Shown: piece after piece, positions 3,212 to 27,899 of the stretch
How positions within the stretch are numbered: position 1 is the stretch's first letter
Layout of the letters: each line of letters opens with the position of its first letter
Origin: Desulfuromonas acetoxidans DSM 684
GTDB taxonomy: Bacteria > Desulfobacterota > Desulfuromonadia > Desulfuromonadales > Desulfuromonadaceae
Assembly (NCBI RefSeq): GCF_000167355.1
Contig: NZ_AAEW02000003.1
Coordinates: 62,001 to 126,000, forward strand
Direction: 5' to 3'
DNA: 64,000 nucleotides
Made by a program: the position numbers and the translations under genes
The notes under the pieces: model-generated
What the model saw: the letters and a program-made list of their open reading frames with translations, nothing else
Database searches by the model: none
What the model was told of the DNA's origin: nothing

Positions 3212-3214
3212 TAA

Positions 3215-7325: not shown

Positions 7326-7354
7326 AATGCTTTTTTGCAGCACACTTAAAAAGT

Positions 7355-7795: not shown

Positions 7796-7819
7796 GATTC
7801 CGTCTCAATCGCGTTAGGT

Positions 7820-8849: not shown

Positions 8850-8858
8850 ATCTGACCG

Positions 8859-9935: not shown

Positions 9936-9938
9936 ATT

Positions 9939-10484: not shown

Positions 10485-10557
10485 TACTAACGGAGCAGAA
10501 GCCCGTTATATCATCCGTAGTTTTGATAAAAACAGTTTAGAATTGACATCATACAAG

Positions 10558-10584
10558 AAAAGGACAGGCGATGCCTGTCCTTTT
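10558..10584 (-). terminator. Terminator after pilQ
   Basis: AAAAGGACAGGC and GCCTGTCCTTTT form a perfect 12-bp stem with a 3-base loop, 24 bases after the pilQ stop. It separates the pilMNOPQ transcript from aroK-aroB. The T tract within the stem makes it look bidirectional. Confidence 0.85.
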
Positions 10585-10608
10585 CTTTACCATTGGTAAA
10601 AAAATAAA

Positions 10609-12792
10609 CTAATCAACAATATGCGGCGTCAAGAAAATCAGAAGTTCTGTCCGATCGTTCGAGGACGTTTTATACTTAAAGAGATTTCCAATAAAGGGGA
10701 GATCTTTTAAATAAGGAGTACCCGAATCCGAATTTTGTTCATTCTCTGTATAGATACCACCAATAACAGTTGTTTCACCATTTTTCAAAAGCAACTTAGT
10801 TTCAGCTTCCTTTGTATTAATGGCAACACCATCAGTATAGGCCACTCCGGGAGAACTGTTAGTCGCCAAGATCTCAAGTAAAATGGTATTGTCGGGATTA
10901 ATCAACGGTGTTACTTCAAGAGCTAATTCTGCCTTTTTGAATTCTGTTGTTGTCCCGTTATCGCTCGTTGTTTTATAAGGAATTTCAGTCCCTTGCCCAA
11001 TTCTCGCAGTCTCACCATCCAAAGCCATAACTTTAGGGGATGAGATAACTTTACCACCCCCAGATGACTCAAGAGCAGACAGCTGCAAATCAAGTACAAT
11101 TGTATCCAACCCTACCCGACCAAACGTTAACGCAGTTCCAAGACCATCAGTCGCACTGGTCGGTGTAATAAAGTTCCCGCCAAGGCCGACAACCGCATTA
11201 TCCAGAGAAGAACCAATGCCACCACCGGAGCTTCCGGAATCATTATCAAACTCAAACCCCCAATGAATACCAAAAGTCTGTTCCGCGCTTGTGTCAGCCT
11301 CAACGATGCGGGCTTCAATTAGTACCTGCTTGACCGGCTCATCTAATTGGTTAATAAGCATCCTAATCTCTTCCAATTTCGAGGGAATATCATTCACCAT
11401 GATCTTCTTACTTCCCTCAATCAACTGGACCTCACCCTGATTACTCAACACATCATCAATGACATCTTCAATCGCTTCTGTATCTTTATAGTTAATGACA
11501 AAAATTTCTGTTCGCGTCTCCTCCAGCTTTTTAATATCTTTTGTAGCTTTAAGACGTTCAGCTTCCATTTTTTTAATTGTGCCCAATGGCAAAATACGCA
11601 CAACATTTCCCTGAGTAATTGTTCCTAATTGCTTGACATCAAGAATCAAATCCAAAGCTTGGTCCCAAGGAACATCATGAAGCCGCAGAGAAACCTTACC
11701 TTTAACATCATCGGATAGGATAATATTCAGATTACTGATTTCAGCGATAAGTTGCATCACTTTACGAATATCTGCATCATCCAATACGAGCGTTACAGGC
11801 TCACCAGTATAAACCTTCGGAGCATCCTTGTCCGCTGTTGCAGAAAGCAAACCAGCAGCAGATTCACCTTCAATACGGTTCAGAACCTGTGATACATCAT
11901 CCATATTTTCATCGTAGGCATAGGCGGGGTCAGAGATAGTTTCAACAATCCCATTCGATTGAGCAGCTTTCGTGGGTTGCACAGGAACATAAACTGAGTC
12001 CAAGGCACTTGGAGCAGTTTCAGCAAAAACGCCATCAACTGTGCTGAAAACCAACTGACTACCGTTTCTGCTCACACTGTACTGAACTAGTCCCTTCATT
12101 TTAGCCGAGAACATGACATTACGCGTTCCGTCTATAATCGTTGAATAAGGAGTGATTTGCAGAACTGAGCTGGGAAAAACAGATGCGTCAACAACACGCC
12201 TCAAAGAACGCGGAATAACAGTATCACTGGCACCAAACCTGATTGTACCATCTACAGTTTCAGCCTCAATCAAATCAAAACGACCATCAAAGTCTACCGT
12301 AAACGTTGATGCTCCGTCTTGTGCATCAAAATTAATCGATTTTACAGAAACCGGTTTCTCAACTCGAGGTTTTACCGCAACGGCAGTTTTCCCAGACCAG
12401 TCGATAACAATATCGTTTCCATAACGCTCGACTGTTGCTTCAGGTAGCTGACCAGAATTAGCATCAAAAACAAAGCGTGTTTTGTCGGCATAAATCCCAA
12501 CACGAATGGCTGAAAAGCCGGAGGCAACATCAAAAGCTCGTTCCTCGAACAAAGGCAATACGCCACTGACGTCAACGACTAAGCGGGGAGGAGCCCCTAG
12601 TGTATAAAAATCAAAAGCAACATCTGGACTATCAATTGCCAATACAGCTGAAGTCTCAGAAATAGTAACGCTTTCAACCGTTGCCATCGCTGCATGGGCA
12701 GCACTGTTGTCGATTCCGACAAGAGAGAAGAACAGTGACAGAACTACAGCAGCATAGCCCAGCGTTTTACGAACAGGTTTCAACACAGTCAT
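10609..12792 (-). CDS. pilQ: Type IV pilus secretin
   Basis: PilQ forms the outer-membrane channel through which the pilus passes. The 727-residue precursor has a signal peptide ending near residue 34. Two AMIN-type peptidoglycan-binding regions follow, about residues 38-110 and 150-230. An STN/N0 domain lies at about 335-405, an N1 domain near 430-490, and the secretin barrel at about 560-727, with the VPFIGNLF-like phrase (here DLPFIGNLF) and a LLIFLTPHIV end. Length and order are those of Geobacter- and Myxococcus-type PilQ. It is the last gene of pilMNOPQ, 3 bp after pilP. Confidence 0.95.
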   Translation of the reverse strand: MTVLKPVRKTLGYAAVVLSLFFSLVGIDNSAAHAAMATVESVTISETSAVLAIDSPDVAFDFYTLGAPPRLVVDVSGVLPLFEERAFDVASGFSAIRVGIYADKTRFVFDANSGQLPEATVERYGNDIVIDWSGKTAVAVKPRVEKPVSVKSINFDAQDGASTFTVDFDGRFDLIEAETVDGTIRFGASDTVIPRSLRRVVDASVFPSSVLQITPYSTIIDGTRNVMFSAKMKGLVQYSVSRNGSQLVFSTVDGVFAETAPSALDSVYVPVQPTKAAQSNGIVETISDPAYAYDENMDDVSQVLNRIEGESAAGLLSATADKDAPKVYTGEPVTLVLDDADIRKVMQLIAEISNLNIILSDDVKGKVSLRLHDVPWDQALDLILDVKQLGTITQGNVVRILPLGTIKKMEAERLKATKDIKKLEETRTEIFVINYKDTEAIEDVIDDVLSNQGEVQLIEGSKKIMVNDIPSKLEEIRMLINQLDEPVKQVLIEARIVEADTSAEQTFGIHWGFEFDNDSGSSGGGIGSSLDNAVVGLGGNFITPTSATDGLGTALTFGRVGLDTIVLDLQLSALESSGGGKVISSPKVMALDGETARIGQGTEIPYKTTSDNGTTTEFKKAELALEVTPLINPDNTILLEILATNSSPGVAYTDGVAINTKEAETKLLLKNGETTVIGGIYTENEQNSDSGTPYLKDLPFIGNLFKYKTSSNDRTELLIFLTPHIVD

Positions 12793-12795
12793 TTT

Positions 12796-13314
12796 CTATT
12801 CCCCTTCTCGTTGAGGAAGTGCAATTTCTTTCAATTCGGTGCGCAGAGCCCCCGAAAAATCACGATAACGTTCCTCGACAACAACTTTACTTTCTGTAAT
12901 TTCAACAACATGGCCACGGTTACGGCCGACCTTAACCCCGGCAACCAACGTGTAGGCTTTTTTATCAGGTGCAACCACCATCGCCCTAGGTTCATTTTGT
13001 CCCAGAACAACGGCAATCAATTGTAGTTCTTTCAAGCCAAAACGCTGCAATGGTGTTTCCGGCTCAGTCTCATCATTCAGGGGTTCACGTATCTTCAAAA
13101 GAGAGGCAAAAGGGTCACGACGGCCCTCTGCTATATATTTATATTTTATTTCATTTTTTTTCCCTTGAGGTGCCTCAACTACTTTCGCCTTAATTTTTTT
13201 AGACACAGCCTTGGGCGTTATTTTCTTAACTTTTTTGGGTGCTTTTTCATCTCCGCAAGCAGCAAGACTCAAAACAAGGGCGAGAAATAAAACAAGAGCA
13301 ATAATCCTCATCAT
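12796..13314 (-). CDS. pilP: Type IV pilus assembly lipoprotein PilP
   Basis: PilP links the inner-membrane PilNO complex to PilQ. The 172-residue precursor has a lipobox LAAC at residues 17-20, a Lys-rich segment, and a C-terminal beta domain starting at YKYIAEGRRDPFASL, the hallmark of PilP. It overlaps pilO by 4 bp and is followed by pilQ after 3 bp. Confidence 0.93.
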   Translation of the reverse strand: MMRIIALVLFLALVLSLAACGDEKAPKKVKKITPKAVSKKIKAKVVEAPQGKKNEIKYKYIAEGRRDPFASLLKIREPLNDETEPETPLQRFGLKELQLIAVVLGQNEPRAMVVAPDKKAYTLVAGVKVGRNRGHVVEITESKVVVEERYRDFSGALRTELKEIALPQREGE

Positions 13315-13913
13315 TTTCTTCTCCCTTTCTTCTTGGGAGCCGGTGGATTCTCAACAAAACGATAAGTCACCACAGTATTGGAAATTGACAACTGGGCGAC
13401 CCCGTCACTCATCTTCGGTTTACCTAAATCCAAGTTAGTGACATTAACAATACGAGCTAGATTCGATACTGCCTCACAAAAAAGGGCCATCTCATGATAA
13501 TTCCCTTTAAGCTTCAGCGAGACAGGCACCTCCGCATAAAATCCCTTTGTTCGTTCTTTGCCTGGCTTAAATTCCACAACTTCAAGGCCATTATCTCGAG
13601 CCAACCCCGCAACACTAGTCAATAAGTTGGGTATTTCACTTTCATTCGGCAATTCATTCAGGGCCAAATCAAGCTGTTTTTTCATCTTTTCATATTCAGC
13701 CTTAAACCTTGGGAGGTTATTGGCGATACGACGTTTCTCCTGCAGCTCAACGAGAACTTTTTTATTATTTTTCTGCTGTTTAGCAAGTTCTTTCTGAGCA
13801 GGCACATAAAGAAAATACGCATATCCGCCAGCAATTACACCCAAGATCAGCAACAACAGTAATACACGCTGATAGAGAGGCATTTTAAGAACTTTTTCAA
13901 CTCGTGGATCCAT
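13311..13913 (-). CDS. pilO: Type IV pilus inner-membrane protein PilO
   Basis: The 200-residue product has a short cytoplasmic N-terminus, one membrane helix at about residues 17-35, a coiled coil at 38-85 and a ferredoxin-like periplasmic domain containing ARDNGLEVVEFKPG. This is the PilO layout. PilO dimerises with PilN to form the alignment complex. It starts 14 bp after pilN and overlaps pilP. Confidence 0.93.
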   Translation of the reverse strand: MDPRVEKVLKMPLYQRVLLLLLILGVIAGGYAYFLYVPAQKELAKQQKNNKKVLVELQEKRRIANNLPRFKAEYEKMKKQLDLALNELPNESEIPNLLTSVAGLARDNGLEVVEFKPGKERTKGFYAEVPVSLKLKGNYHEMALFCEAVSNLARIVNVTNLDLGKPKMSDGVAQLSISNTVVTYRFVENPPAPKKKGRRK

Positions 13914-13927
13914 CTTATTGATCCTCC

Positions 13928-14488
13928 CTATTTTTTCACCCCTGAAGAAGGCTGCTCAACCTTGCATGACAATTCAAAATTTTGGAGTCTTAATCCGCCA
14001 GATGTTTTTTGTTTCGTCACCTTTAAACGAACATTTTTATAATATGCAGAAGCGTCAAGATTTGTCATGAAATCGGCAACATCATCTTCACTTAAGCCAA
14101 CCCCCTTTAAAGTTATATTGCCACCCTTCTCTTTAAAATCAGTAACCCATAAATTGTCCGGCAAAGCCGTGATCAAATCATCCATAATATGAACAGGCCC
14201 AGACTTCGCCTTTTTCAAAGTTTCAAGAACATCAAGTTTATTTTTCAATTCTTCCTGAAGTGCTTTGAATTTATTTACTTCACCAATCTTTTTTTGCAGG
14301 CTTTTTATCTCAGCCTTATTTTTTCTTATCTGAGACTTAACCGTGTCGATATCAGATTGAATCGACATTTGCATAACCACGCATCCGACAATGATGATAG
14401 CAAGTGCAACGCCCGCAACAACAAACTGATTACGTAACTGCTCTTTTTTTTGGGCTGCTTTTACCGGAAGCAGATTTATACGGATCAT
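13928..14488 (-). CDS. pilN: Type IV pilus inner-membrane protein PilN
   Basis: The product of 186 residues opens MIRINLLP, the conserved PilN tail that binds PilM in the cytoplasm. A membrane helix at residues 23-44, a coiled coil at 50-95 and a ferredoxin-like periplasmic domain follow. Its start overlaps the pilM stop by 4 bp. Confidence 0.95.
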   Translation of the reverse strand: MIRINLLPVKAAQKKEQLRNQFVVAGVALAIIIVGCVVMQMSIQSDIDTVKSQIRKNKAEIKSLQKKIGEVNKFKALQEELKNKLDVLETLKKAKSGPVHIMDDLITALPDNLWVTDFKEKGGNITLKGVGLSEDDVADFMTNLDASAYYKNVRLKVTKQKTSGGLRLQNFELSCKVEQPSSGVKK

Positions 14489-15543
14489 AATTTATCTCCC
14501 AACTTACGCGTTGCCAATCCGGCAGCGACAGAAAAGAATGGGGCAACTGATTTCACATAATCAAGATCAAAATCTTTTTCATTGACCGTCATGCGGCTGA
14601 AAGGATCCAAAATTTCTACCGCAACATCCAACCCCTCAGACAACGAAGGGACGATATTCGTAATTAAGGAAACACCGCCTGTTATATACACCTTTTCAAC
14701 ACGTTCATCTGCAAAGGTCGCGGAAAAGAAATCCAAAGATCGACGAATTTCTTGAACCAGGTTGTTCGTAACATTCTGGAGCGCATCCTGAACCGCCTCA
14801 TCATCCATACTCAATGAATCTGCACCCAACTTAAGGGATTCGGCATCTTCACTGTTGATACCAAAACGTTTTTGCAACTCCTCGTTATAGCTATTCCCTC
14901 CCAGCTGAATTTCGCGGGTAAAAACAGAAACACTGTTTTTCAAAACATTAACCTGAATCCCACTAGCACCCATGTCAATCAGTGCAACAACATTCGCAGA
15001 CTCATCGTCATAAACAGAGCAATAGATATTTTCAATTGAGAAACAATCCACATCAACAATGACCGGATTAAGACCGCTTTCCTTAAAAACTGCTACATAT
15101 TCATCAACAAAGTCTTTTTTGGCAGCGATCAGTATAACTTCCATCTGCCCTTGATCATTTGGATCGGGTCCTAAAATATGATAATCAAGAAAAACCTCTG
15201 ACATTTCAAATGGGATATACTGTTCCGCTTCCCACTGAATCGAGTTTTCCAGTTCGTCTTCAGTCATCAAAGCCAGTGAAATTTTGCGAATAATGACTGA
15301 ATGCCCTGACACAGATGTCGCCACATCTGCAGCCTTAATATGATTGCGTGTCATCAAATCGCGAATTGCCATAACAACAGCACTTGAGTCCATAATTGAA
15401 CTGTCAACAACCGCCTCGGGTGGCAAAGGCTCACGATCCAATCGCAACAGATGGAATCCGGACTTACCTTCATGAAGCTGCACCAGCTTGACTGCACTGG
15501 CCCCGATATCAATACCGACAATATCTTTCTTTGATCCAAACAT
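14485..15543 (-). CDS. pilM: Type IV pilus actin-like ATPase PilM
   Basis: PilM is the cytoplasmic actin-like protein that holds the PilN tail. The 352-residue product begins MFGSKKDIVGIDIGASAVKLVQL, with the phosphate-1 loop DIGAS, and continues with LIDMGASGIQVNV (phosphate 2) and YITGGVSLI (adenosine loop). An ATG five codons further upstream is an equally possible start; neither has a strong ribosome site. The promoter at 15635-15662 lies about 90 bp upstream. It heads pilMNOPQ. Confidence 0.94.
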   Translation of the reverse strand: MFGSKKDIVGIDIGASAVKLVQLHEGKSGFHLLRLDREPLPPEAVVDSSIMDSSAVVMAIRDLMTRNHIKAADVATSVSGHSVIIRKISLALMTEDELENSIQWEAEQYIPFEMSEVFLDYHILGPDPNDQGQMEVILIAAKKDFVDEYVAVFKESGLNPVIVDVDCFSIENIYCSVYDDESANVVALIDMGASGIQVNVLKNSVSVFTREIQLGGNSYNEELQKRFGINSEDAESLKLGADSLSMDDEAVQDALQNVTNNLVQEIRRSLDFFSATFADERVEKVYITGGVSLITNIVPSLSEGLDVAVEILDPFSRMTVNEKDFDLDYVKSVAPFFSVAAGLATRKLGDKL

Positions 15544-15634
15544 AAGACAAGATCCCATTGTGAAAGATGCTAAAAGACGTACTCGCCATTAGGGAACATA
15601 AAAATCAAATGTTCCATGCAGTTATACTCTGTCG

Positions 15635-15662
15635 ATTATAAGCAAAATCATAACATCGTCAA
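15635..15662 (-). promoter_or_regulatory. Sigma70-type promoter of pilMNOPQ
   Basis: On the minus strand TTGACG is followed after 16 bases by a perfect TATAAT. It lies between pilD and pilM, about 92 bases before the pilM start. A second TTATAC-like AT-rich stretch lies just upstream. No sigma54-type site was seen here. Confidence 0.75.
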
Positions 15663-15725
15663 GTATAATTAAAAAAAAACAAGCTATAGCGAAACCATAT
15701 TCTACTGGCGGGATATCAGAGTTTT

Positions 15726-16520
15726 TTAAATGACAAATAAATTAAAATACCACCGCACAAGAACTTCCCCCCAAAATAAATAAATCAACGTTCCTGCAAC
15801 AAGGAAAGGCCCAAAAGGTAGTGCCATTTTTGAATCTCCTTTTTGTAACAACATCACTGGAATACCCACCAGTGAGCCCAGCAGTGAACTTAAGAAAACC
15901 ACCGGAAGAATGACACGCCAACCACAAAAAGCGCCAATCATTGCCAATAGCTTAATGTCACCTCCGCCCATCCCCTCTTTTTTAGTAAAAAATTCATACA
16001 GAAAGGCAACTGCAAAAAGACTCCCCCCGCCAACAAGAACCCCGATCAACGAATCCTTCCAACTGACCCAGGGAATGGCAAAAGAGCAGATAAAGCCGAT
16101 CGGGATACCAGGCAAAGTAATTACATCAGGAATAATCTGATGGTCATAATCAATAAACGTGACAACAACAAGTGCCGAAACAAACAGAAAAAGAACCAAA
16201 GTCACCATGGAAAAGCGCGCGTAGTAAAAAACCAGACAATAAAGTGCCCCATTAAGAGCTTCGATACCAGGGTAGCGCCAACTAAACGAAGCACCACAGA
16301 AAGCACAACGTCCACGCAAAAAAAGAAAGCTCAAAATCGGAATATTATGATACCAGCGAAGTCGACTATCACAGCTAAAACAATGTGAGGGCGGAAACAC
16401 AACGGACTTCCCAAGGGGAATCCGATAAATGCACACATTCAAAAAAGAGCCAATAACAGCGCCCAAGACAAACACAAATAGCCAAATCATCATCAACGTC
16501 TCATCCGCAAACAGTCCCAT
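15726..16520 (-). CDS. pilD: Prepilin peptidase
   Basis: PilD cleaves and N-methylates type IV prepilins at the inner membrane. The 264-residue product has 7-8 membrane segments. The N-terminal cytoplasmic loop carries paired cysteines (CFSCDSRL and CAFCGASFSWRYP), the zinc-type motif of bifunctional PilD. The two catalytic aspartates are visible in FIDYDHQIIPD and GMGGGDIKLLAMIGAF. Its start overlaps the GT9 gene by 20 bp, so it lies at the end of the glycan transcript. pilM follows behind its own promoter. Confidence 0.95.
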   Translation of the reverse strand: MGLFADETLMMIWLFVFVLGAVIGSFLNVCIYRIPLGKSVVFPPSHCFSCDSRLRWYHNIPILSFLFLRGRCAFCGASFSWRYPGIEALNGALYCLVFYYARFSMVTLVLFLFVSALVVVTFIDYDHQIIPDVITLPGIPIGFICSFAIPWVSWKDSLIGVLVGGGSLFAVAFLYEFFTKKEGMGGGDIKLLAMIGAFCGWRVILPVVFLSSLLGSLVGIPVMLLQKGDSKMALPFGPFLVAGTLIYLFWGEVLVRWYFNLFVI

Positions 16521-17619
16521 GCTCTCCCCTCAACAAACCCTCTTTACACGCTTCAAAAACTCGACTTACCGAAATATCCTGAACACAACGATATTCAATT
16601 AAACATGGAGGAATCGTTCCAAAACGACTACATGGAGAACAAGGCAAACCCAAGCTCACGACACGATGTCCGCTTCCTCGTGGTGCCCATTTATCAATAC
16701 TGCTGGGACCAAACAAAGCAACAGTTCTACTACCGACAGCAACCGCCAAATGCAACAAACCCGAATCAGCACCAACAAACAATTTACCTTCAGAGATAAC
16801 TCGTGCGACCTGAGGCAAGGAAGTTTTCCCAGCAATACTAATTCCACCACAACGCTTAGCTACAAGCGATGCCGACTCTAAATCTTGATGGCCACCAACC
16901 ACAACGACCTGACAATCCATCCCCCTTAAAGCAACAGCAAGTTGCGCCCATCTCTCAACCGGCCAGCGCTTATCTGCAACACTCGCCCCAGGAAAAAGAA
17001 CAACATAAGGAGTTTGCGGTATCACTGAAGTCAGACATCCCAGCGAGGATCCACATAAATTTTGTGCGGAGATAAAAGGCGCCTGAACAGATGTCGGGCG
17101 AGGAACTTCCAGAGAGTCTAACAGACTCAAGAACGATTCAACTTCATAAGATTTCTGATCGTAGGCAGAGACACAATCAAATAATAGACGTCTTTTGTTA
17201 GAAGCAAAACCACAACGTCGACCAGCCCGCAAAAGCTTTGAAATTACAGCAGAAAGGTAATGTGACTGCTCCGTATCAATAATCAGATCGTAATCTTTAA
17301 AAAAGAAATCTTTCCAATCCCCCAGCTTGTCATAACACCAAACCTCGGCAACTCCTTCACAAAGATCAAACACTTGAGCATTTCTTTTTTCAGCCAATAT
17401 ATAAATTGAGGCACCTTCAAAAAAGTCTCTACATGCTTGCAAAGTGGGTAACAGCAAAACCGCATCACCTATCCCACCAGGACGCACAATTAAAATGCTC
17501 CGGCAATGGATCGCTGACCAGGAAGTCGACCTCACTGGCAGCAGTCCCAACAACCACACCAACAAAGGCCCAACAAGCCCATCAAGCTTTTTCAAAAAAG
17601 AGATCTGATTCAAAAACAA
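16501..17619 (-). CDS. GT9 glycosyltransferase (heptosyltransferase-like)
   Basis: The 372-residue product is a GT-B enzyme of the ADP-heptose:LPS heptosyltransferase type. Marks are ILIVRPGGIGDAVLLLPTL at about residues 42-60, LFPGASVADKRWPVERWA near 207, and FVGADSGLLHLAVAVGSRTVALFGPS near 280-305. A CSPCSR segment follows, as in WaaF/RfaQ relatives. It is likely to build the LPS core or a surface glycan in the cytoplasm. The first usable codon is TTG at 17619, 9 bp after the upstream gene; there is no in-frame ATG near. It overlaps pilD. Confidence 0.85.
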   Translation of the reverse strand: MFLNQISFLKKLDGLVGPLLVWLLGLLPVRSTSWSAIHCRSILIVRPGGIGDAVLLLPTLQACRDFFEGASIYILAEKRNAQVFDLCEGVAEVWCYDKLGDWKDFFFKDYDLIIDTEQSHYLSAVISKLLRAGRRCGFASNKRRLLFDCVSAYDQKSYEVESFLSLLDSLEVPRPTSVQAPFISAQNLCGSSLGCLTSVIPQTPYVVLFPGASVADKRWPVERWAQLAVALRGMDCQVVVVGGHQDLESASLVAKRCGGISIAGKTSLPQVARVISEGKLFVGADSGLLHLAVAVGSRTVALFGPSSIDKWAPRGSGHRVVSLGLPCSPCSRFGTIPPCLIEYRCVQDISVSRVFEACKEGLLRGEHGTVCG

Positions 17620-17628
17620 CTCAACACA

Positions 17629-18351
17629 TTAAGGGAAAAAAGTTTCTGCGGTATGAATCGTCACAAACGATGCCAGGACTGTATATAAAATGATAATCAG
17701 CAAAAAATAAAACCCAACAGAAAGCCCTACCGATGGTATTCCCAATAAAGGACATAAAACAAAAACAAGAGCGGTATAATCTGGGAAAGAAAAAAACGAC
17801 TTCACGTTCTTAGCAAAAAACCACTGTCGATAGTGATTAAAGCGACGAAAAAGGGAAAAGCCCCCTAAAGTCCCCTCATGACTACTTATAGCAAAACCAG
17901 CAAGGTAGCTCATGTAGCATTCAGCTATATGCATAAAAGCCATCGCCCAAACCCAAGGCTCCATCAAAAGATTTTGCGACCAAGATAAAGCACCAAGAAT
18001 CAATACATCGCCAACAAGATCTGAGACATGATCTAAATAACGCCCCAGCTCAGAAGACTCATTTTTTATCCTAGCAATTGTACCGTCAGCACAATCACAT
18101 ACATATGCAAAAAAATAGCTAATTGCTCCAACAACTAGTAAAGACCGGCTTGCGAAGAGAAAACAAAAAAAAGTCACCAAACGAAAGGCAATTGCCATCA
18201 TGGTGACATGATTTGCTGTCAACGAGGTACGGTTGACCACAAGAACAACCAATTGTCGTGCCATAGGTTGTATTAACGGTAATGCCCACCATGTCTTTAA
18301 CGACATAGCACGATCAGCTTCTCTGGATGTTACGGTGCCAGCAATTGACAA
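17629..18351 (-). CDS. CDP-alcohol phosphatidyltransferase-family protein
   Basis: This 240-residue membrane protein carries the family motif with its aspartates at DCADGTIARI and GRYLDHVSD (pattern D-G-x2-A-R-x8-G-x3-D-x3-D, four conserved Asp). About six membrane helices follow. Such enzymes move a phospho-alcohol from a CDP-alcohol to an acceptor. The neighbouring TagD-like gene could supply the CDP-alcohol. I used the TTG at 18351 because AAAGGAT lies 8 bases upstream; an ATG at 18306 is the alternative. Substrate is unknown. Confidence 0.8.
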   Translation of the reverse strand: MSIAGTVTSREADRAMSLKTWWALPLIQPMARQLVVLVVNRTSLTANHVTMMAIAFRLVTFFCFLFASRSLLVVGAISYFFAYVCDCADGTIARIKNESSELGRYLDHVSDLVGDVLILGALSWSQNLLMEPWVWAMAFMHIAECYMSYLAGFAISSHEGTLGGFSLFRRFNHYRQWFFAKNVKSFFSFPDYTALVFVLCPLLGIPSVGLSVGFYFLLIIILYTVLASFVTIHTAETFFP

Positions 18352-18356
18352 GACAA

Positions 18357-18758
18357 TTATCCTTTCATCATCCCCTTAAGTAGAGATGTCGAAATATCTT
18401 CAGTACGTGACAAATAAATAACCTCGCAATACTCTTTTAAAAAATCAAACTCTCCAAGCCAATCATCACCTATCGTAAAAATATCAACCTTATATTTTCT
18501 CACATCTGATCTTTTCTGGTCCCAATTGTTTTCTGGAATTACTTTATCGACATATCGGATCGATTCGAGAATTTCTTTACGCTGTTCATAGGGCAAAAAG
18601 GAACTTTTATGCTTCACAGCATTGAACTCATCTGTAGAGAGGCCAACAATCAGCACATCGCCTAAAGACTTAGCTCGCTTTAAAAGTCTAACATGTCCGA
18701 CATGCAACAAATCAAAAGTACCGTAAGTAATTACAATCTTTAGTTGTTTATTTTCCAT
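18357..18758 (-). CDS. TagD-like glycerol-3-phosphate cytidylyltransferase family
   Basis: The 133-residue product is a nucleotidyltransferase of the cytidylyltransferase fold. TYGTFDLLHVGHVRLLKRAK contains the HxGH motif, and SRTEDISTSLL matches the RTxGISTT signature with Asp in place of Gly. Size fits TagD, which makes CDP-glycerol. Other CDP-alcohols cannot be excluded because of the changed signature. It lies 5 bp upstream of the CDP-alcohol transferase gene, suggesting sequential steps in surface-polymer decoration. Confidence 0.8.
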   Translation of the reverse strand: MENKQLKIVITYGTFDLLHVGHVRLLKRAKSLGDVLIVGLSTDEFNAVKHKSSFLPYEQRKEILESIRYVDKVIPENNWDQKRSDVRKYKVDIFTIGDDWLGEFDFLKEYCEVIYLSRTEDISTSLLKGMMKG

Positions 18759-18786
18759 AGAAAACCTACCGGATACGATGGTGTAC

Positions 18787-19878
18787 TTATAGTGTAATCA
18801 AATCTGATTGAACAACAGATGCTACACGCTTTATTTCCGACTGAAGCTTATTTGAAAATCTAGACGACGTGTAAAAACCGATGTCAACCCCATCATAACC
18901 TTTAAAAGAAATTAGTGCAGTAGACGCTACACCAACCATTCTTTTAATATCTAAGCAACCATAAAACACCTCTACTGGACATGCAATCAACACATCGTCC
19001 TCAACAAAGTGAACCCTCGCTAGAGCATTCGAAGGTAAACTTTTCTTCAATTCCTCAATTTCTAATGGTGTAGACCGCGGATGGGGCTTTACTATCAAAA
19101 GATATGGGCTAATCTCAAGTTCACTATCAATAACCTTTGAAAAAAAGCTAAGATAATAATCTTTATCAGAAAAAAACTTAGGAAATAAGTTTTGCCAAAC
19201 AAGAACAGAGACAGGTTTATGGAGGAGGTCAATGCAATTTTCTTCGATCACCTCTAAAACATTCGACCTCAACACGTCATAAACATTTTGAAGTGATTCG
19301 ACATGAAGAGAATTTACATCGAAAGGAATCATTTCTTGCGAAGCAAGATACGGTGGTAAATAAAATTTACAAAGTCCTTTTTTCAGGAAGTTTTCGACTC
19401 CAAACATCTTAAAAAAAATACGTTTGGCAATATTTTTATTTAAAGAAAGATATGCTCCATCAGGGACAAAAAGAACTTCCTGCGGTGCAACAGAATTCAA
19501 TAAGATATTATCGGAAACCAAATTTTTCCGGTATGGCATAACAAGAGTTGAACAGTGAAGCAGGGATGCGAAGCCTTTACCGTGAAGCCACAAGCGAATT
19601 TCCCCGACAAGGTCTTTCCGGAAAAATGACTTTATCAACTGCCCTAAGCTACCAATGCAAACCTCTGAAATTTCATCTTTGAGATTTTCTATTGATCCTA
19701 AATACTTGTAGCCAAAACATCGACAAACATATTTTTCAAAATCAACAATTCGCCGATCTCCTCCTACATAGCTTAAAACACCAGCAACATCGTCCCCTCT
19801 ATCCAATTGTTGCAACAAAGCAATTGAAGACAACAACTGCTGAGGTCCACCTGAAATTAAAAAAACTAATTTAGCCAT
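18787..19878 (-). CDS. Polysialyltransferase-like putative glycosyltransferase
   Basis: The 363-residue product begins MAKLVFLISGGPQQLLSSIA, close in style to the N-terminus of bacterial alpha-2,8-polysialyltransferase and GT52 proteins. LFVPDGAYLSL in the middle and LIVKPHPRSTPLEI in the second half fit a GT-B sialyltransferase-like fold (D/E-D/E-G and HP motifs). No membrane segment is clear. It overlaps the CMP-sialate synthetase gene by 8 bp, which supports use of a CMP-activated nine-carbon sugar. The assignment rests on motifs and context. Confidence 0.5.
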   Translation of the reverse strand: MAKLVFLISGGPQQLLSSIALLQQLDRGDDVAGVLSYVGGDRRIVDFEKYVCRCFGYKYLGSIENLKDEISEVCIGSLGQLIKSFFRKDLVGEIRLWLHGKGFASLLHCSTLVMPYRKNLVSDNILLNSVAPQEVLFVPDGAYLSLNKNIAKRIFFKMFGVENFLKKGLCKFYLPPYLASQEMIPFDVNSLHVESLQNVYDVLRSNVLEVIEENCIDLLHKPVSVLVWQNLFPKFFSDKDYYLSFFSKVIDSELEISPYLLIVKPHPRSTPLEIEELKKSLPSNALARVHFVEDDVLIACPVEVFYGCLDIKRMVGVASTALISFKGYDGVDIGFYTSSRFSNKLQSEIKRVASVVQSDLITL

Positions 19879-21034
19879 CTGCCAAAATCATGTCAGCAAA
19901 TGCACGTACGGCCCCCTGGCCTCCCTTTACATCTAGAACGATATCAACACAATCCCTCACCTCTTTTGAGGCGTCCATTGGACATGCTGTAACACCACAT
20001 AGCTTTATGGCAGGCAAATCATTCACATCATCACCAATATAAGCAATTTGATTCAATGAAATACCGATATTGCGGGCAAAATTCATTAGGGTTTTATCTT
20101 TTTGTTTTATTCCCATAAAGACAAAATCAATACCCACTTTTTCCGCCCTACGTTTAACAAATAGTGTTTCTTCACCTGTAACAATAGCAGACTGGATACC
20201 CTTCCCACGAAGGAGCTCTACAGCTTTCCCATCTTTGGTGTTGAATTTTTTAAATGCCTCACCATCTTCATTGTAGTACATCCCTGCATCAGTCATGACA
20301 CCATCGCAGTCCATGACAAGCATCTTGATATTCGAAAAGTCATGTTTTCTGCCTTCCCTATTTAACAAAAGGGCTTCCACAATTTTCCAATCACTTACTT
20401 CATCTATCTCATAATATGTTTCATCATCCATTTCATAACAGGTAATCTCACCAGAAATACGACATTGAGACTTTAATATTCCCTCCCTTGAAGATAGATA
20501 AAAAGCTCCATTTTCTACAAGATATCCATCAAACTGCTGACGCCTTGGGCGATTAAACGGATCATAATTTACAGATTCTGCATTTCCAGGAGAAGATTCT
20601 CTCCAGATAAAACGCTTTTGCCGCACAACAGAGATGAGTGAATCACAGCAAGTATCTTCGAAAAGTTTCCAAGCATTGTCAAAATCTTCACTTGACACCA
20701 AAGGAGATGTCGCTTGAACTAAAAAAACCTTGTCAAACGAATAATTATTACAAAACTCCAAAAGAGCAGATTCCGTACTAGCAACATCTGTGGCAGTTTC
20801 GACTGATCGTCCAATGACCTTTAGTTTTGGAAACTGCAATATCTCAACAATCTCAGAAATAACAGGAGAGTCTGTCGACACATAAACTGCATCAATACAC
20901 TCCGCCGCACAAGCAGCCTCGACAACCCATTGAACTAATGGTTTTCCAGCAATCGATTTGACATTTTTCAGGGGAATCGATTTGCTTCCTCCGCGAACAG
21001 GGATAAAAGCAACCACTTTTCCTCTATCAGTCAT
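19871..21034 (-). CDS. neuA: CMP-sialate-type synthetase fused to KdsC-like HAD phosphatase
   Basis: This 387-residue protein has two domains. Residues 1-225 are an acylneuraminate cytidylyltransferase (IPVRGGSKSIPLKN at 11-24, QATSPL at 107-112), which activates a nonulosonate with CTP. Residues 235-387 are a KdsC-type HAD phosphatase with MDCDGVMTD (Asp242, Asp244), KDGKAVELL, VTGEE and GDDVNDLP (335-341). All HAD catalytic residues look intact. The ATG at 21034 overlaps the neuB stop by 8 bp (AATGACTGA); the open frame extends 17 codons further but into neuB. The fusion suggests dephosphorylation of a 9-phosphate sugar before or with CMP transfer. Confidence 0.87.
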   Translation of the reverse strand: MTDRGKVVAFIPVRGGSKSIPLKNVKSIAGKPLVQWVVEAACAAECIDAVYVSTDSPVISEIVEILQFPKLKVIGRSVETATDVASTESALLEFCNNYSFDKVFLVQATSPLVSSEDFDNAWKLFEDTCCDSLISVVRQKRFIWRESSPGNAESVNYDPFNRPRRQQFDGYLVENGAFYLSSREGILKSQCRISGEITCYEMDDETYYEIDEVSDWKIVEALLLNREGRKHDFSNIKMLVMDCDGVMTDAGMYYNEDGEAFKKFNTKDGKAVELLRGKGIQSAIVTGEETLFVKRRAEKVGIDFVFMGIKQKDKTLMNFARNIGISLNQIAYIGDDVNDLPAIKLCGVTACPMDASKEVRDCVDIVLDVKGGQGAVRAFADMILADG

Positions 21035-21905
21035 TTTTATTATACTCTCCCCACTTGAGCTTTTTTCTTTGTGGCAATTCAACATTGAGAAGCTCAGCAG
21101 ATTTATATCTCAAAGACTTTGAAACATTGCGCAAATCACGAGTCAGCCGACGCATACCATCAGGCTCCAAAGATGCTGCGTGATCCGTTCCTTTCCAAGT
21201 TCTATCCAAAGTAAAATGTCGCTCAAAATAGGTTGCACCTAAAGTTAATGCCCCGATATCTGCTGCGATACCAAGATGATGCCCGGAAAAGCCAATAGCC
21301 TTCACTCGCTGTTCAAACTGTTCTTTCAGACGAGTTACCTCCAGCAAACAAATATCTTCGAATGATACAGGGTAACCAGAAGTACATGAATAAATGACAA
21401 GATCCTTGGCACGGCCATGTTTTTCAAAAAATCGCACCAAGGCCTGTTCCTCCTGATGAGTGGTCATCCCAACTGAAGCATGAATCTCTCCATCATAGTG
21501 CTTGCAAAGGTATTCCAACATTTCATAATGCTGGTTGGAAGCCGATGGAATTTTAATAAACTTAGGTTCTAACTCGGCAATCTCTTTTGCTGAAGTCAAA
21601 TCCCAAACAGAACACGAATAAACAACACCAAGCTCATCGCACCATTGTTTCAACTGCCGGTGCTGGTCTTGGTCAAACTCTAGAAACTCTCTATGTTCAC
21701 CATAAGTTGCCCCATAAGAATTCATAGGGTTAGGATGTGGTGTATTATACTGTTCGGGTGTGAGCAATTCACGATTGCTCCTTTTTTGGAATTTTACTGC
21801 ATCGACTTTACAAAAAATCGCTGCAGTGGCTATCAGCTCCTTAGCAATAGTCATATCACCTTTATGATTACACCCGACCTCAGCGACAACAGTAATTTTA
21901 TCCAT
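21027..21905 (-). CDS. neuB: NeuB-family nonulosonate synthase, without SAF domain
   Basis: NeuB enzymes condense phosphoenolpyruvate with a hexosamine or hexose to give a sialic-acid-type nine-carbon sugar. The 292-residue product opens VVAEVGCNHKGD and contains AVKFQKR, KIPSASN, GFSGHHLGI and ERHFTLDRTWKGTDHAASLEP, all in the TIM-barrel catalytic core. Usual NeuB proteins have about 340-360 residues with a C-terminal antifreeze-like SAF domain; here the protein stops after the barrel. AGGAGAAACC precedes the ATG. It is followed, overlapping, by the CMP-synthetase fusion. Confidence 0.9.
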   Translation of the reverse strand: MDKITVVAEVGCNHKGDMTIAKELIATAAIFCKVDAVKFQKRSNRELLTPEQYNTPHPNPMNSYGATYGEHREFLEFDQDQHRQLKQWCDELGVVYSCSVWDLTSAKEIAELEPKFIKIPSASNQHYEMLEYLCKHYDGEIHASVGMTTHQEEQALVRFFEKHGRAKDLVIYSCTSGYPVSFEDICLLEVTRLKEQFEQRVKAIGFSGHHLGIAADIGALTLGATYFERHFTLDRTWKGTDHAASLEPDGMRRLTRDLRNVSKSLRYKSAELLNVELPQRKKLKWGEYNKND

Positions 21906-21913
21906 GGTTTCTC

Positions 21914-23152
21914 CTATTCAATAAAACCCTTAATTTTTAGAAAATAATAAACTTTAAGAAGAAAGTTTTTAACAATAGATTTATATCCTAAAGATAAATC
22001 CTGCTCAATGAAATCACAGTATGATTTAGTAATTGCCTTTAGATGATTATAGCGAAACGGAAAAGTCCTAGCCTCTCCTGAAACATCATTAACCAAAGAA
22101 TCTACCTCTTGAAAAACTCGAAAAGAATTCTTTCCATCAGACAAAAAGTGGTTGTCCCACCATGAACGATCTGGTTCGACCATACGATCATCTAACAAAT
22201 CTGTGAATGTCATAGCACAACCACTAGCTGCGAAATAATTGGTTCCATAATCTTCACGGATACCGAAATCCATTAGAAACCCGACATGGACGCCCTTATT
22301 TACTGCCTCAAATGCTGCAGTAGAACTCACAGTCAAACAAAGATCAACCATATCTAATAGATCGACAATTGGATCATAAGTGAGCATAAAATTCTGAGGG
22401 ATCTCGTGTTTTCTTGAAAGACATTCAACTATCTTCTGATAATGAAAAACCGTCTTATGGACGGAATCTTGATTAAGACGATGACGTGGCTTAAAGTATA
22501 CTGTTCTTTCAGGATATTTTTCACAGTATTTAAACAATGAGTAAACCAAACTAGCTCTCTCAGACAAAGTTTCAGGAACTGTTGGTTGTCCCGCAAATAA
22601 AACATTTTTTTTATTATCATGAGGACTAGGGTTATTTTGTTTAAAGCTTAAATCCAACAACGGCAACCCTGTAAGGGTTATATTGCTACTATCAGACACT
22701 TTGTAATCCGATAACAACTTACAAAACAACTCATAATCATACTTTGAGTTAACAAAGAAAATATCTAGCGGTTGCCGAAAAAGTAATCCCATTGAGAACT
22801 TTTCATATACAATGCCACAATACCCTCCAAAAAAAACAGGTCTCTGAACATCAGCAGGATAGACATCCGACAACCGAGAAAGAATTCGGTTTATTTCATT
22901 GCCTTTTAGACTCAACATGACAGCGTCAAATTGACTTATAAAATTCATATCGTAAATTTTTTTTACATCACTGGATATATAGTGGTGACTGAACCCAATA
23001 TCATTAAGGTGCTCTTTATCTACAACACCGTTATCCGTAAGTATTAAATACTCAACGCGGTATGAATTATGTTCGAAAATATTGCAGACTGGAATACTTG
23101 CTTTAATAAAACTATCAGACCGACAACATATTAAAAGTTTATTTATTTTCAA
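21914..23152 (-). CDS. Unassigned transferase of the glycan cluster
   Basis: I do not firmly recognise this 412-residue protein. It has a two-half layout. LLICCRSDSF opens a first Rossmann-like half. The second half contains VLFAGQP, VYFKPRHRL and LTVSSTAAFEAVNKGVHVGFLMDFG, which resembles the donor-binding part of GT-B transferases and of CDP-glycerophosphotransferases. Relatives may sit in an uncharacterised DUF6716-type family. The start is probably TTG 23152 behind AGAGG; another TTG at 23170 is possible. It lies between neuB and the broken pyruvyltransferase gene, so a nonulosonate-glycan role is likely. Confidence 0.6.
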   Translation of the reverse strand: MKINKLLICCRSDSFIKASIPVCNIFEHNSYRVEYLILTDNGVVDKEHLNDIGFSHHYISSDVKKIYDMNFISQFDAVMLSLKGNEINRILSRLSDVYPADVQRPVFFGGYCGIVYEKFSMGLLFRQPLDIFFVNSKYDYELFCKLLSDYKVSDSSNITLTGLPLLDLSFKQNNPSPHDNKKNVLFAGQPTVPETLSERASLVYSLFKYCEKYPERTVYFKPRHRLNQDSVHKTVFHYQKIVECLSRKHEIPQNFMLTYDPIVDLLDMVDLCLTVSSTAAFEAVNKGVHVGFLMDFGIREDYGTNYFAASGCAMTFTDLLDDRMVEPDRSWWDNHFLSDGKNSFRVFQEVDSLVNDVSGEARTFPFRYNHLKAITKSYCDFIEQDLSLGYKSIVKNFLLKVYYFLKIKGFIE

Positions 23153-23184
23153 AATACCTCTAATCCTCAATTCAAAAAATAATT

Positions 23185-23895
23185 CTACAACGCATCTAAA
23201 ATAGAGTTAACATTATTCTTTGTGATTTTATAAATATCTGTCTGACATCTAGCAATGTCTACTTCTAAATTTCTACGATTATCTAGGCAATAACGAATTT
23301 TATCTTCAAGCCTGGCCCCTAAATCTTTATCATGTATATTTATTGCCAAATCAGGACGATTGATATCTTCAAAAAAAGCTTTAACTTTCCGATGAGTCAC
23401 AAGCCCAATCGGCACAGTTCCTACCCCAAAAGGGATCAAACCGGCATGTCCTCGCACTCCAACAGACAGATAAGGAGTTCTATAGGACTTTATGATCTCA
23501 TCTGGTTTCATACGGTATAAATCTTCACACCTTAATAGTATGTCGTAGGCACCCCTCAAAGCATTCAAAAATCTTTTATCCCCTGGGCTATGGGCGTAAT
23601 AAACAATTTCAAAATCTTTTCCAATTGTGCTTATTACATTGGCTATTTCTTGTAAAACCATATCAAAACGACCTGAATATCTTTCCTCAAAACGGTCAAA
23701 AGCAAAATTCAATGAAACGATAGGTTTTTTATCAATTGGTGGCAAGTCAGAATAAATCGAATTTATTAATGTCGTTGGACAAGGTTGATAAACAACTTTA
23801 TCTTTCAATGAACCAGGAAGAGCATCACGAACAATATTCACATCATCTAGGTGCCTAAACCCAAGAAATAGAGACTTTTCTGCACAAATAGACAA
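23185..23895 (-). pseudogene. Polysaccharide pyruvyltransferase-like gene, 5' end missing
   Basis: The 236 codons match the C-terminal two thirds of polysaccharide pyruvyltransferase/CsaB-type proteins: FLGFRHLDDVNIVRDAL, VVYQPCPTTL, a conserved FERYSGR-like segment (FEERYSGR), YYAHSPGDK and SVGVRGHAGLIPFGVGTVP near residue 150. Intact relatives have about 350-400 residues. The missing N-terminal third would have been upstream of 23897, where the sequence is instead the inside of pilT. The only start available is a TTG at 23895 with no ribosome site. A non-functional fragment is the likeliest state. Confidence 0.75.
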
Positions 23896-24203
23896 ATATA
23901 TGGGATACGGCGAAAGGCCCCGGCAACGGCACCACGTTGGATATAAACGTTGCCACGAAAACGCGCTAGCCCTTTAACGCCAAAGGAAAGGTCCAGTTCA
24001 TTTTCTTCTTCGAGTTTGCGTTTTTGCGCATCGGTGAGAATGCTGTAGCACAATTTTTTTGTATCGGCCGGCATCAATACCGGATGATTGAGCGGTTTGA
24101 TCCCGCCGTCGATACGTATCTGCGGCGGAGCTCCGGTGGTCACATGAAGATCCGACGCTCCGGAGTCGACCATCACCTTGAGAAAATCATGTATCGTTGC
24201 CAT
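23847..24203 (-). pseudogene. pilT: Truncated pilT (pilus retraction ATPase), first 102 codons only
   Basis: Residues 1-102 match PilT closely: MATIHDFLKVMVDSGASDLH, APPQIRIDG, LCYSILTDAQ, ELDLSFG and RFRGNVYIQRGAVAGAFRRIPY. The match stops at codon 102 (ends at 23898). Sixteen unrelated residues follow to a stop at 23847. Intact PilT has about 350 residues, so the whole P-loop ATPase core is lost. GGGAGA lies 4 bases before the ATG at 24203. It follows pilB, as in related genomes, but pilC is absent and a broken pyruvyltransferase gene starts at the junction. Confidence 0.9.
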
Positions 24204-24325
24204 GCAATCTCCCATTGTACTCCAGCAAGGTGCTGGACGGTGCTAAGGATTAATTAGATAAACATCTATTGTGCTGATTATGACAAATTTTTTTAATTTC
24301 TCAAATTATTTCAAAGATTTTCCGA

Positions 24326-26026
24326 TCAATCATCGGCCACGGTACAACGGATCACCTCTTCAAAAGACGTAACGCCTTCCTTAAGCGTCTTCAAGGCGGC
24401 CTGACGCATGGTTCGCACGCCGAGTCGCATGGATTCGCGCTTAATTTCAGCCGTATTTGCTCCGGCTAAAACCATTTCACGGATTTCGTCAAACATCGGC
24501 ATGACTTGGTAAATACCAACACGCCCTTTGTAACCACTATCGTTGCAGTTACTGCACCCTTTGCCTTTGTAGCAGACAAAATCATCCACCTCGTCAGGGG
24601 CAACACCGGCATCGAGAAGAGCCTGCTTGGACACCTCCTCAACTTCTTTACATTCTGAACACAGTCGACGGCCGAGGCGCTGTGCGGTAATCAGGTTGAC
24701 GGCAGAAGCGACCAGGAAAGGTTCAATGCCCATATTCAACAAGCGGTTGATGGTACTGGGCGCATCGTTCGTATGCAGGGTCGAAAGTACCAAGTGACCG
24801 GTCAGGGCCGCCTTGACACCGATTTCCGCTGTTTCAAAGTCACGGATCTCACCAATCATGATGATATCAGGATCCTGACGCAGAAAAGCGCGCAACGCGC
24901 TGGCAAAGTTGAGGCCGATCTCTTCGTGCATCTGCACTTGGTTGATGCCGGCAAAGTTAAACTCGACCGGGTCTTCCGCCGTTGAAATATTCTCCGTGGT
25001 TTTGTTCAGTTCGCCAAGCGCTGAGTACAGCGAAACAGTTTTACCACTCCCCGTCGGACCAGTAACCAGAACCATGCCGAACGGCTTGCTAATCTCCTGC
25101 TTGAACCATTTAAGAGATTCCTCTTCATAACCCAGCTTGGTCATATCCAATTGCAGATTGGACTTATCAAGAAGTCGCAGACAGATTTTTTCGCCAAACA
25201 ATGTCGGCAGACAATTAACCCGGTAGTCCATGTCTTTACCACCAGGCAGTTTGATCTTAATTCGGCCGTCTTGCGGAAGACGCCGCTCGGCAATATCCAT
25301 CTCAGACAGAATTTTGATCCGAGAGGTGATGGCGTTCTTCAGTTTGATCGGCGGCTTCATCACCTCATAAAGCACACCGTCAATCCGATAACGGACACGG
25401 AAGGATTTTTCATAGGGCTCAATATGAATATCGGATGCCCCTTTTTTGATGGCATCAGTAAGAATCAGATTAACCAGCTTAACGACCGGGGCCTCTTCCG
25501 TGGCCATCTGCAGTTCATTAAGGTCAACCTGATCATCATCATCAATAACTTCAAGGTCAATGTCGTCCAGATCACCCATGACATCGGCTAAGGAGGCCGA
25601 CTGGTCGTAATAACGATCAATGGCGTCTTTGATAGCACTTTCCGTTGCTACCACAACCTCGACATTGTGACCGGTCATGAACTTGATATCATCAATGGCG
25701 AAAATATTGGAGGGGTCGCTCATGGCGACAATCAGAGTGGAACCGGCTCGATTGATGGGAACCAGATGATATTTTTGGACGACATCAGCAGAGATCAGCT
25801 TGACGACATCGGTATCGACTTCAAATTCAGCAAGGTTGATCGCCGGTGCGCCATACTGACGTGACAAAAATGCAGCAAGGTCATCTTCACTGATATATTT
25901 CAAACGGATCAATGTTGCAACGAACCGTTCCTTATTCATTTTTTGTTCACCGATCGCCTTGCTGACCTGATCTTCCGTCAACAGGTTACTGCGAACCAGC
26001 AGTTCCCCTAACCGATTAGTTGCCAT
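24326..26026 (-). CDS. pilB: Type IV pilus extension ATPase
   Basis: PilB is the cytoplasmic motor that polymerises pilin. The 566-residue product has an MshEN-type N domain (residues 1-150), then the GspE core with GPTGSGKTVSLYSAL (Walker A, about residue 325), an Asp box, IMIGEIRDFETAEIGVKAALTGH (Walker B) and STLHTNDA (His box). A zinc tetracysteine motif is formed by CSECKE and KGCSNCNDSG near 455-490. Length is typical. aroE lies 50 bp upstream; the truncated pilT lies 122 bp downstream. Confidence 0.97.
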   Translation of the reverse strand: MATNRLGELLVRSNLLTEDQVSKAIGEQKMNKERFVATLIRLKYISEDDLAAFLSRQYGAPAINLAEFEVDTDVVKLISADVVQKYHLVPINRAGSTLIVAMSDPSNIFAIDDIKFMTGHNVEVVVATESAIKDAIDRYYDQSASLADVMGDLDDIDLEVIDDDDQVDLNELQMATEEAPVVKLVNLILTDAIKKGASDIHIEPYEKSFRVRYRIDGVLYEVMKPPIKLKNAITSRIKILSEMDIAERRLPQDGRIKIKLPGGKDMDYRVNCLPTLFGEKICLRLLDKSNLQLDMTKLGYEEESLKWFKQEISKPFGMVLVTGPTGSGKTVSLYSALGELNKTTENISTAEDPVEFNFAGINQVQMHEEIGLNFASALRAFLRQDPDIIMIGEIRDFETAEIGVKAALTGHLVLSTLHTNDAPSTINRLLNMGIEPFLVASAVNLITAQRLGRRLCSECKEVEEVSKQALLDAGVAPDEVDDFVCYKGKGCSNCNDSGYKGRVGIYQVMPMFDEIREMVLAGANTAEIKRESMRLGVRTMRQAALKTLKEGVTSFEEVIRCTVADD

Positions 26027-26076
26027 AAAGTTCTTCCGCCTAGCTGTTTAATTGATAACTCAAACGAATCTGCCGA

Positions 26077-26919
26077 TCAACGCAGAGCCTGCGCCATAGC
26101 CCGCCCGGGATCTTTTCCAGTCCACAAGCGAAACGCCGCCTCGCCTTGGGCGATCAACATCCCCAGTCCATCACAGCAGCGATATCCCCGTTCGCGGGCC
26201 GCCAGGACAAGAGGTGTTCCCTGAGCTGAATAAATCATGTCGTAGATATAACACGGCCTCCCTACAACGTGCCATGGTAGCACATTAAAGGATTCACCGG
26301 AAAGACCTAATGATGTTGAATTGACAATTAAATCGGTTTCAGAGACAACCGAGGTCAATGCTTCGCATGTCAGTGAACTGACAAGGAAATCGACATCTGG
26401 AAAAGAAGGTTGATAACGCTCCACCAGTTGCTGCGCCCGGTCGACAGTACGATTAGCAATCGTCAACTTTCTTACGCCCTGTCGAGCCAGGGCGACAATG
26501 GCTGACCGGGCTGCACCACCAGCGCCGAGCACCATGACATTTTTCTGACAGACATCAATATTAAGATCCGCTTTAAGCGAATCTACCAGCCCCAATCCGT
26601 CGGTATTGTATCCAACAAACTCACTCCCTTCGCGGACAACCGTGTTCACCGCACCGATCAAAGCAGCCTCATCATCCAGACGATCCATAAAAGCGCAAAC
26701 CATCTCCTTGTGAGGCACAGTGACATTAACACCCTGGACCTGCAACGCTTTCAAACCGGCAACAGCGTCTTCCAAATCGTTTGGCACAACATGAAAAGGC
26801 ACATACACCGCGTCAAGACCCAAAGCGGTAAAAGCAGCATTTTGCATCACCGGTGACAGAGAATGTTGTACTGGATCACCCAAAATGCCGTAAATCTTTG
26901 TTTCCCCTGAAACGGTCAT
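26077..26919 (-). CDS. aroE: Shikimate dehydrogenase
   Basis: AroE reduces 3-dehydroshikimate with NADPH. The 280-residue product has the substrate domain with HSLSPVMQNAAF and VTVPHKE (catalytic lysine), and the cofactor domain with GAGGAARSAIVAL and NRTVDRAQQL; NSTSLGL and YDMIYSAQGTPL complete the pattern. Length is normal. It overlaps ribF by 4 bp and precedes pilB. It is the fourth shikimate gene within 20 kb on this strand. Confidence 0.96.
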   Translation of the reverse strand: MTVSGETKIYGILGDPVQHSLSPVMQNAAFTALGLDAVYVPFHVVPNDLEDAVAGLKALQVQGVNVTVPHKEMVCAFMDRLDDEAALIGAVNTVVREGSEFVGYNTDGLGLVDSLKADLNIDVCQKNVMVLGAGGAARSAIVALARQGVRKLTIANRTVDRAQQLVERYQPSFPDVDFLVSSLTCEALTSVVSETDLIVNSTSLGLSGESFNVLPWHVVGRPCYIYDMIYSAQGTPLVLAARERGYRCCDGLGMLIAQGEAAFRLWTGKDPGRAMAQALR

Positions 26920-27899
26920 GCCTCGTCCTGTTTAAACGTGAGGTACTCACGATATTCAATAATCCGGGTCCGCTCCAAGCAATGATGCGCCTCGGTGACA
27001 TCCTGCTCAATGGCACCAATCAATGCATCTTTATCGGAAAAAGTTTTTTGATTCCGCAGTTTTTTAACAAAATACAACCGCATGGTCTGATCATACACAT
27101 CCTCTTTAAAATCAAACAGATGCGCTTCAATCGTCAACGGATGGTCACCAAAGGTTGTTTTGCAACCGATACTCACCACCGATTTGTACTCTTTGCCATG
27201 GACCATGGCAATACAAGCATAAACACCGCTGGCTGGAATGAGTTCTTTTTCAGTGGCAAGGTTAGCTGTGGCAAAACCGAGATTATGTCCACGGCCATCG
27301 CCATGCACCACTTGTCCTTCAAAGTTAAAATGCCGTCCCAACAACGCAACCACGCCCTCGACATCCCCTGAAAGAACATGCTGGCGCACTCGCGTCGAGC
27401 TGATCACCTGTCCTTGCTTCTGCACAGGACCAAACACATCGACAATAAAGCCCTTACGCTGTCCCTGTTCGCGCAAGAACTCAATGGAACCGCTGCGCCC
27501 CTTGCCGAAAGCATAATCATAACCGACAACCAGATGTTTTAGCCCAATGCGCTCGATAAGAATCTGATCGACAAACTGTTCCGGATCCAACGCCGCCAAT
27601 TCAGGGGTAAAAGGGAGAACCAGCAAGACATCGACACAGGATGCGCCTATCAGCCGTTCACGCTCCTGAGGCGTATTGATCAACCGTGGCGCACGGTCAG
27701 CGGCCAACAATTTCAGCGGATGGGGCTCAAAAGTGCAAACAATAGAAGTCCCTCCTTCGTTGCGAGCACTCTCTACCACGGACCGAAAAATTTCCCGATG
27801 ACCAAGATGGACACCATCAAAATTTCCCAGCGTGACCACAGCATGGTCAAAAGGATGGTCTATTTCAGATAAATTGCGAATTACTTTCATACCATTCAA
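26916..27899 (-). CDS. ribF: Bifunctional riboflavin kinase/FAD synthetase
   Basis: RibF makes FMN and then FAD. The 327-residue product has the FAD synthetase nucleotidyltransferase domain first (TLGNFDGVHLGH near residue 22 and ISSTRVRQ near 168), then the riboflavin kinase domain (GDGRGHNLGFATANL, ASGVYACIA and FGDHPLTIEAHLFDF, residues about 185-300). Length is normal. An alternative ATG lies at codon 4. It follows rnr after 10 bp and overlaps aroE. Confidence 0.95.
   Translation of the reverse strand: MNGMKVIRNLSEIDHPFDHAVVTLGNFDGVHLGHREIFRSVVESARNEGGTSIVCTFEPHPLKLLAADRAPRLINTPQERERLIGASCVDVLLVLPFTPELAALDPEQFVDQILIERIGLKHLVVGYDYAFGKGRSGSIEFLREQGQRKGFIVDVFGPVQKQGQVISSTRVRQHVLSGDVEGVVALLGRHFNFEGQVVHGDGRGHNLGFATANLATEKELIPASGVYACIAMVHGKEYKSVVSIGCKTTFGDHPLTIEAHLFDFKEDVYDQTMRLYFVKKLRNQKTFSDKDALIGAIEQDVTEAHHCLERTRIIEYREYLTFKQDEA

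Follow-up and report, generated by a model that had tools for sequence, protein, structure and literature searches.

Why does pilT at this locus of Desulfuromonas acetoxidans DSM 684 stop after its 102nd codon and run directly into a polysaccharide pyruvyltransferase gene that lacks its beginning, and does the loss between the two belong to the strain or to its draft genome? We addressed this question in a stretch of 64,000 nucleotides (hereafter, the window) by comparing it with related genomes and with the rest of the assembly.

Two gene remnants at the junction

The features surrounding the junction are as follows:

23898..24215, minus strand: 5' remnant of pilT, codons 1-102 counted from MATIHDF, plus four in-frame codons upstream
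23897..23898: putative deletion junction; the final codon in common with relatives, TAT, has its last base at 23898
23847..23897, minus strand: out-of-frame tail after the junction, closing the truncated PilT reading frame at 122 aa (from the ORF list and the codon alignment)
23185..23895, minus strand: headless polysaccharide pyruvyltransferase, missing ~124 N-terminal residues and out of frame with pilT

PilT homology ends after codon 102 of 369, its final base being 23898. The reading frame at 24215-23847 (minus strand) matched the NCBIfam model pilT_fam (TIGR01420; E = 4.9e-27) over profile positions 2-102 of 343 only, so that the N-terminal part of the profile (positions 1-102) is represented; the intact PilT of the relative G002 covers positions 2-343. 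The RecA-like ATPase core was not found in the remnant, which scored 95 bits on TIGR01420 against a cut-off of 319 and left T2SSE unmatched. At the codon level, Tyr102 (counted from MATIHDF) is the last codon common to the remnant and four relatives, and the codons that follow, up to the stop at 23847, are unrelated to the PilT of those relatives. DNA alignments to G007, G008 and G002 start at window positions 23898, 23899 and 23880, respectively. The profile match and the codon alignment agree on the endpoint given in the preliminary description of this DNA, namely codon 102 at 23898. Within its preserved part, the remnant shares 98-99% amino acid identity with the intact PilT of G002, G007 and G008. 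Chance is not an issue for the truncation because pilT runs past codon 102 in every close relative that is readable across that point: the short pilT frame of G010 stops at a contig end, and in G012 and G023 homologous pilT resumes after the short frame and is followed by pilC. The junction itself lies deep inside a 244-kb contig.

On the other side of the junction, the frame at 23895-23185 aligned with residues 125-365 of a 418-aa polysaccharide pyruvyl transferase from S. meliloti (29% identity, 8e-29), which is itself a PF04230 member (1.8e-16). The C-terminal two thirds of the window gene are therefore homologous to this family, but ~124 N-terminal residues are lacking, in line with the earlier remark that its first third was gone. 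Taken alone, the headless frame gave no Pfam match at E 0.1 and no NCBIfam match, and a full PF04230 domain was not recovered from it; the remnant is unlikely to be active. We found no close relatives of this gene in 39 related genomes, in genome contigs or in phages, the matches being two distant ones in Sinorhizobium.

No direct repeats occur within 23700-24100, and the junction bears no transposon scar, as had been noted before. G002 carries an IS30-like transposase beside pilA (L037 6849-7841), and 282 bp from that region recur with 99% identity at C8:70846-71127 in the genome of the window, which suggests recent transfer or activity; we rejected this element as the cause of the junction because its match is on contig C8 and not here. 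Another mobile-looking sequence is a dispersed repeat of ~150 bp with two REP-like hairpins (TGTAGGAGCGAATTTATTCGCGAAT ... ATTCGCGGCTAAAGCCGCTCCTACA), which resembles the REPINs of Pseudomonas and had no Rfam match. It sits between pilC and pilT in G008 and also on several contigs of the window's genome (sites: L039 ~15200-15352; contigs C8, C12 and C15, L094-L098). It was likewise dismissed as a cause, given that the breakpoints are inside genes and that the core motif of the repeat is absent from the window.

Gene order of the pilus locus and the extent of the apparent loss

Beyond the junction, the window holds the following:

24326..26026, minus strand: pilB, intact (TIGR02538 type_IV_pilB, 838 bits, above cut-off)
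16501..23170, minus strand: remaining polysaccharide island (Pfam/NCBIfam)
15726..16520, minus strand: pilD prepilin peptidase, intact, the far flank of the island (PF06750/PF01478; colinear with G002, G007 and G008)
10609..15558, minus strand: pilM-pilN-pilO-pilP-pilQ, intact (ORFs and homology to G002/G008)

G007 and G008 are complete genomes of the same genus as the window. Both carry on one strand a ribF-like gene, an aroE-like gene, pilB-pilT-pilC-pilS-pilR-galU, a pilin-sized ORF, pilGHI-like ABC-transporter genes, a variable polysaccharide island, a GT9 gene, pilD and pilM-N-O-P-Q; genes were named after their homologues in G002 and the window, whereas the labels ribF, aroE and pilGHI are presumptive, resting on recognition rather than family search. 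This layout likely represents the ancestral arrangement. G002 has the same pil genes without the island, its pilGHI-like genes adjoining pilD, and among the 19 nearest named loci, all whose contigs are long enough preserve the order pilB-pilT-pilC. Of this arrangement, the window has only the two ends: pilB with the first 102 codons of pilT and, across the junction, the island genes nearest pilD followed by pilD-pilMNOPQ. Everything between pilT codon 103 and the first island genes is absent, a stretch that would hold roughly half of the pilus genes. Similarly, window positions 3208-16464 and 23880-27689 align to G002, where they flank an 11.9-kb pil segment absent from the window. Measured against the type IVa pilus (T4aP) cluster of the Desulfuromonadales/Myxococcus type (pilB-T-C-S-R-A-G-H-I-D-M-N-O-P-Q), the locus retains gene order, strand, the flanking ribF-like gene and intact pilB, pilD and pilMNOPQ, but it is missing the 3' part of pilT, pilC, pilS, pilR and galU. 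No major pilin gene pilA was found at the window locus. We also noticed that the pilD-pilO region (window 13300-16520 against G008 C1:2933718-2936898) is 97% identical, compared with ~88% on the pilT-pilB side, hinting at recombination around the island.

Because the window holds both ends of the order seen in relatives without its middle, one deletion would explain the junction, and both flanks and the intervening genes lie on one strand in those relatives. The G007/G008 order and the colinear flanks bear out the earlier proposal of a same-strand deletion that took pilC and further genes along with the ATPase core of PilT. We consider a single deletion within the T4aP locus, starting at pilT codon 103 and ending near codon 125 of the pyruvyltransferase gene, close to the start of the island, to be the best explanation, and a probable one. 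Such an event would have fused the two gene remnants out of frame and removed at one stroke the pilT ATPase core, pilC, pilS, pilR and galU, and probably also the local pilin and pilGHI genes. Based on G007 and G008, the loss would amount to ~6.3 kb if counted to the end of galU and ~10 kb if the pilGHI-like genes are included, to which any island genes lost would have to be added. Mechanistically such a deletion, which takes out a gene cluster where it borders a polysaccharide island, is ordinary and implies nothing new.

Unrelated gene halves would also meet at one base if contigs that do not belong together, or DNA from two organisms, had been joined at random, and the preliminary description had cautioned that an assembly join error could not be told apart from a deletion. 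For a random misjoin this does not hold: in relatives the sequences on either side form part of one locus, with strand and order as seen here, colinearity with relatives extends to both flanks of the 7.4-kb polysaccharide block, and the junction is contig-internal, which makes such a join very improbable. The caution stands if the deletion arose in a clone or during assembly but at the right locus, a case to which we return below.

The island consists of genes for a DUF6716 glycosyltransferase, a NeuB-like synthase, a CMP-nonulosonate synthetase/phosphatase fusion, a POLYST-like protein, a cytidylyltransferase, a CDP-alcohol phosphatidyltransferase and GT9. In the fusion, a CMP-nonulosonate cytidylyltransferase is joined to a KDN-9-phosphatase-like HAD domain, and the POLYST-like protein belongs to the alpha-2,8-polysialyltransferase family; this gene content suggests that the island makes a nonulosonic-acid (KDN- or sialic-acid-like) surface polymer. 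GC is ~0.34-0.42 over most of 17.5-23.5 kb versus ~0.49 at pilB, and the island DNA is mostly not common to relatives. Both properties, together with a pyruvyltransferase gene that has no relative in the 39 related genomes, would fit a replacement of the island, in which incoming polysaccharide DNA recombined near pilD and illegitimately inside pilT, bringing an already cut pyruvyltransferase gene and displacing the pil genes. However, the end of the island is positionally conserved: the window GT9 is 44% and 49% identical to the pilD-adjoining GT9 of G007 and G008, respectively, and the CDP-alcohol transferase and cytidylyltransferase are each 41% identical to their G007 counterparts, in conserved order. 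The island therefore appears properly placed and only its pilT side abnormal; since a deletion also takes fewer steps, we regard replacement as improbable. In this genus, the space from the pilGHI-like genes to pilD is taken up by a variable polysaccharide island, which exposes the pil genes to losses of the kind proposed here.

Missing genes and the quality of the draft

Probing the assembly with 11.8 kb of G002 DNA and 12.6 kb of G008 DNA, a search that could miss a diverged pilin or pilGHI copy, did not reveal the orthologous pilT 3' part, pilC, pilS, pilR or galU; the matches obtained were paralogues, a transposase stretch and the dispersed repeat. Searches with T2SSF and T2SSE returned only paralogues as well. 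Besides the remnant, the assembly encodes three PilB/GspE-type proteins (that of the window included), three of PilT type and two of PilC/GspF type, the latter 35% and 30% identical to the PilC of G002. The pair on contig C30 adjoins T2SS-like genes, the pair on C4 adjoins MSHA-like pilins, and PilT paralogues are found on C2 and C1. Accordingly, the assembly lacks the orthologous pilC and pilT by which a functional T4aP cluster would be recognized. Nor does it supply the first third of the pyruvyltransferase: elsewhere in the assembly, PF04230 picks out a single gene, a separate one on C6. We rejected the absence of galU as an indicator of an artefact because it is uninformative: a clear galU sits at the pil locus in all three complete relatives, and several draft relatives are likewise without one.

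The assembly is an old draft in 51 contigs. This 2005 JGI draft of DSM 684 is reported to lack cytochrome c-551.5, possibly through assembly (PMC7762298), and in our own search the exact cytochrome was not found in the assembly, the best match reaching 66%. Given the date of the draft, a clone or assembly deletion is possible, meaning that the locus is intact in the strain and that its middle was lost from the draft, for example by deletion in an E. coli clone or by assembler bridging. The state of the pilT remnant bears on this reading. Compared with relatives, its codons 1-102 carry 25-49 synonymous changes and 0-4 nonsynonymous codons, as in pairs of intact PilT; differences that are almost only synonymous imply an event that is either recent or artefactual. 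The remnant was under selection until very recently, or is so even now, should the living strain carry an intact pilT. Its lack of decay fits an artefact and a very recent deletion equally well, and pilB, pilD and pilM-Q still have uninterrupted reading frames, which is what a recent event would predict. Against an artefact, the c-551.5 gap falls at contig ends, unlike the present junction inside its 244-kb contig with colinear flanks, and the G002 and G008 probes found no contig with the missing genes. Nor have near-identical strains been published with larger genomes (3.80-3.81 versus 3.83 Mb), which is weak evidence in the same direction. Taken together, we judge an artefact of the draft unlikely, and the deletion is probably present in the living strain.

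Predicted consequences for the type IVa pilus

PilC is the inner-membrane platform of the pilus. In the available passages of PMC6060248, PilC is counted with PilB and PilT among the parts of the minimal T4aP motor complex. With PilC lost, assembly of the T4aP is predicted to fail, rather than merely the retraction motor to change, and the strain is predicted to have no functional T4aP of this type. The earlier suggestion that retraction depends on another PilT is right insofar as the paralogues on C2 and C1 exist, but it understates the loss, as the PilC and PilSR orthologues are gone too, and these paralogues would have no pilus of this type left to retract. The MSHA-like and T2SS-like machines encoded elsewhere remain, and their pilins may still need PilD.

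The published T4aP layout of D. acetoxidans, as given in the same passages, places pilT and pilA apart from the main cluster and lists three unlinked pilA genes (PMC6060248). An unlinked pilT fits the truncation described here, although those passages make no mention of the junction or of a loss of pilC. This layout probably rests on the same draft; if the junction is an artefact, gene inventories published from the draft, such as that with pilT 'unlinked', would be wrong.

In syntrophy, D. acetoxidans has been proposed to form type IV pili that transfer electrons. A more far-reaching view, which we hold to be doubtful, is that every D. acetoxidans strain carries the deletion as a real, fixed change, so that the species has lost the canonical platform, retraction motor and regulator of the pilus; any such filaments would then have to be products of MSHA or type II secretion machinery, or be something else. 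If the deletion is real, DSM 684, probably the type strain, would be without a canonical T4aP, which would bear on claims of conductive pili and of syntrophy for D. acetoxidans.
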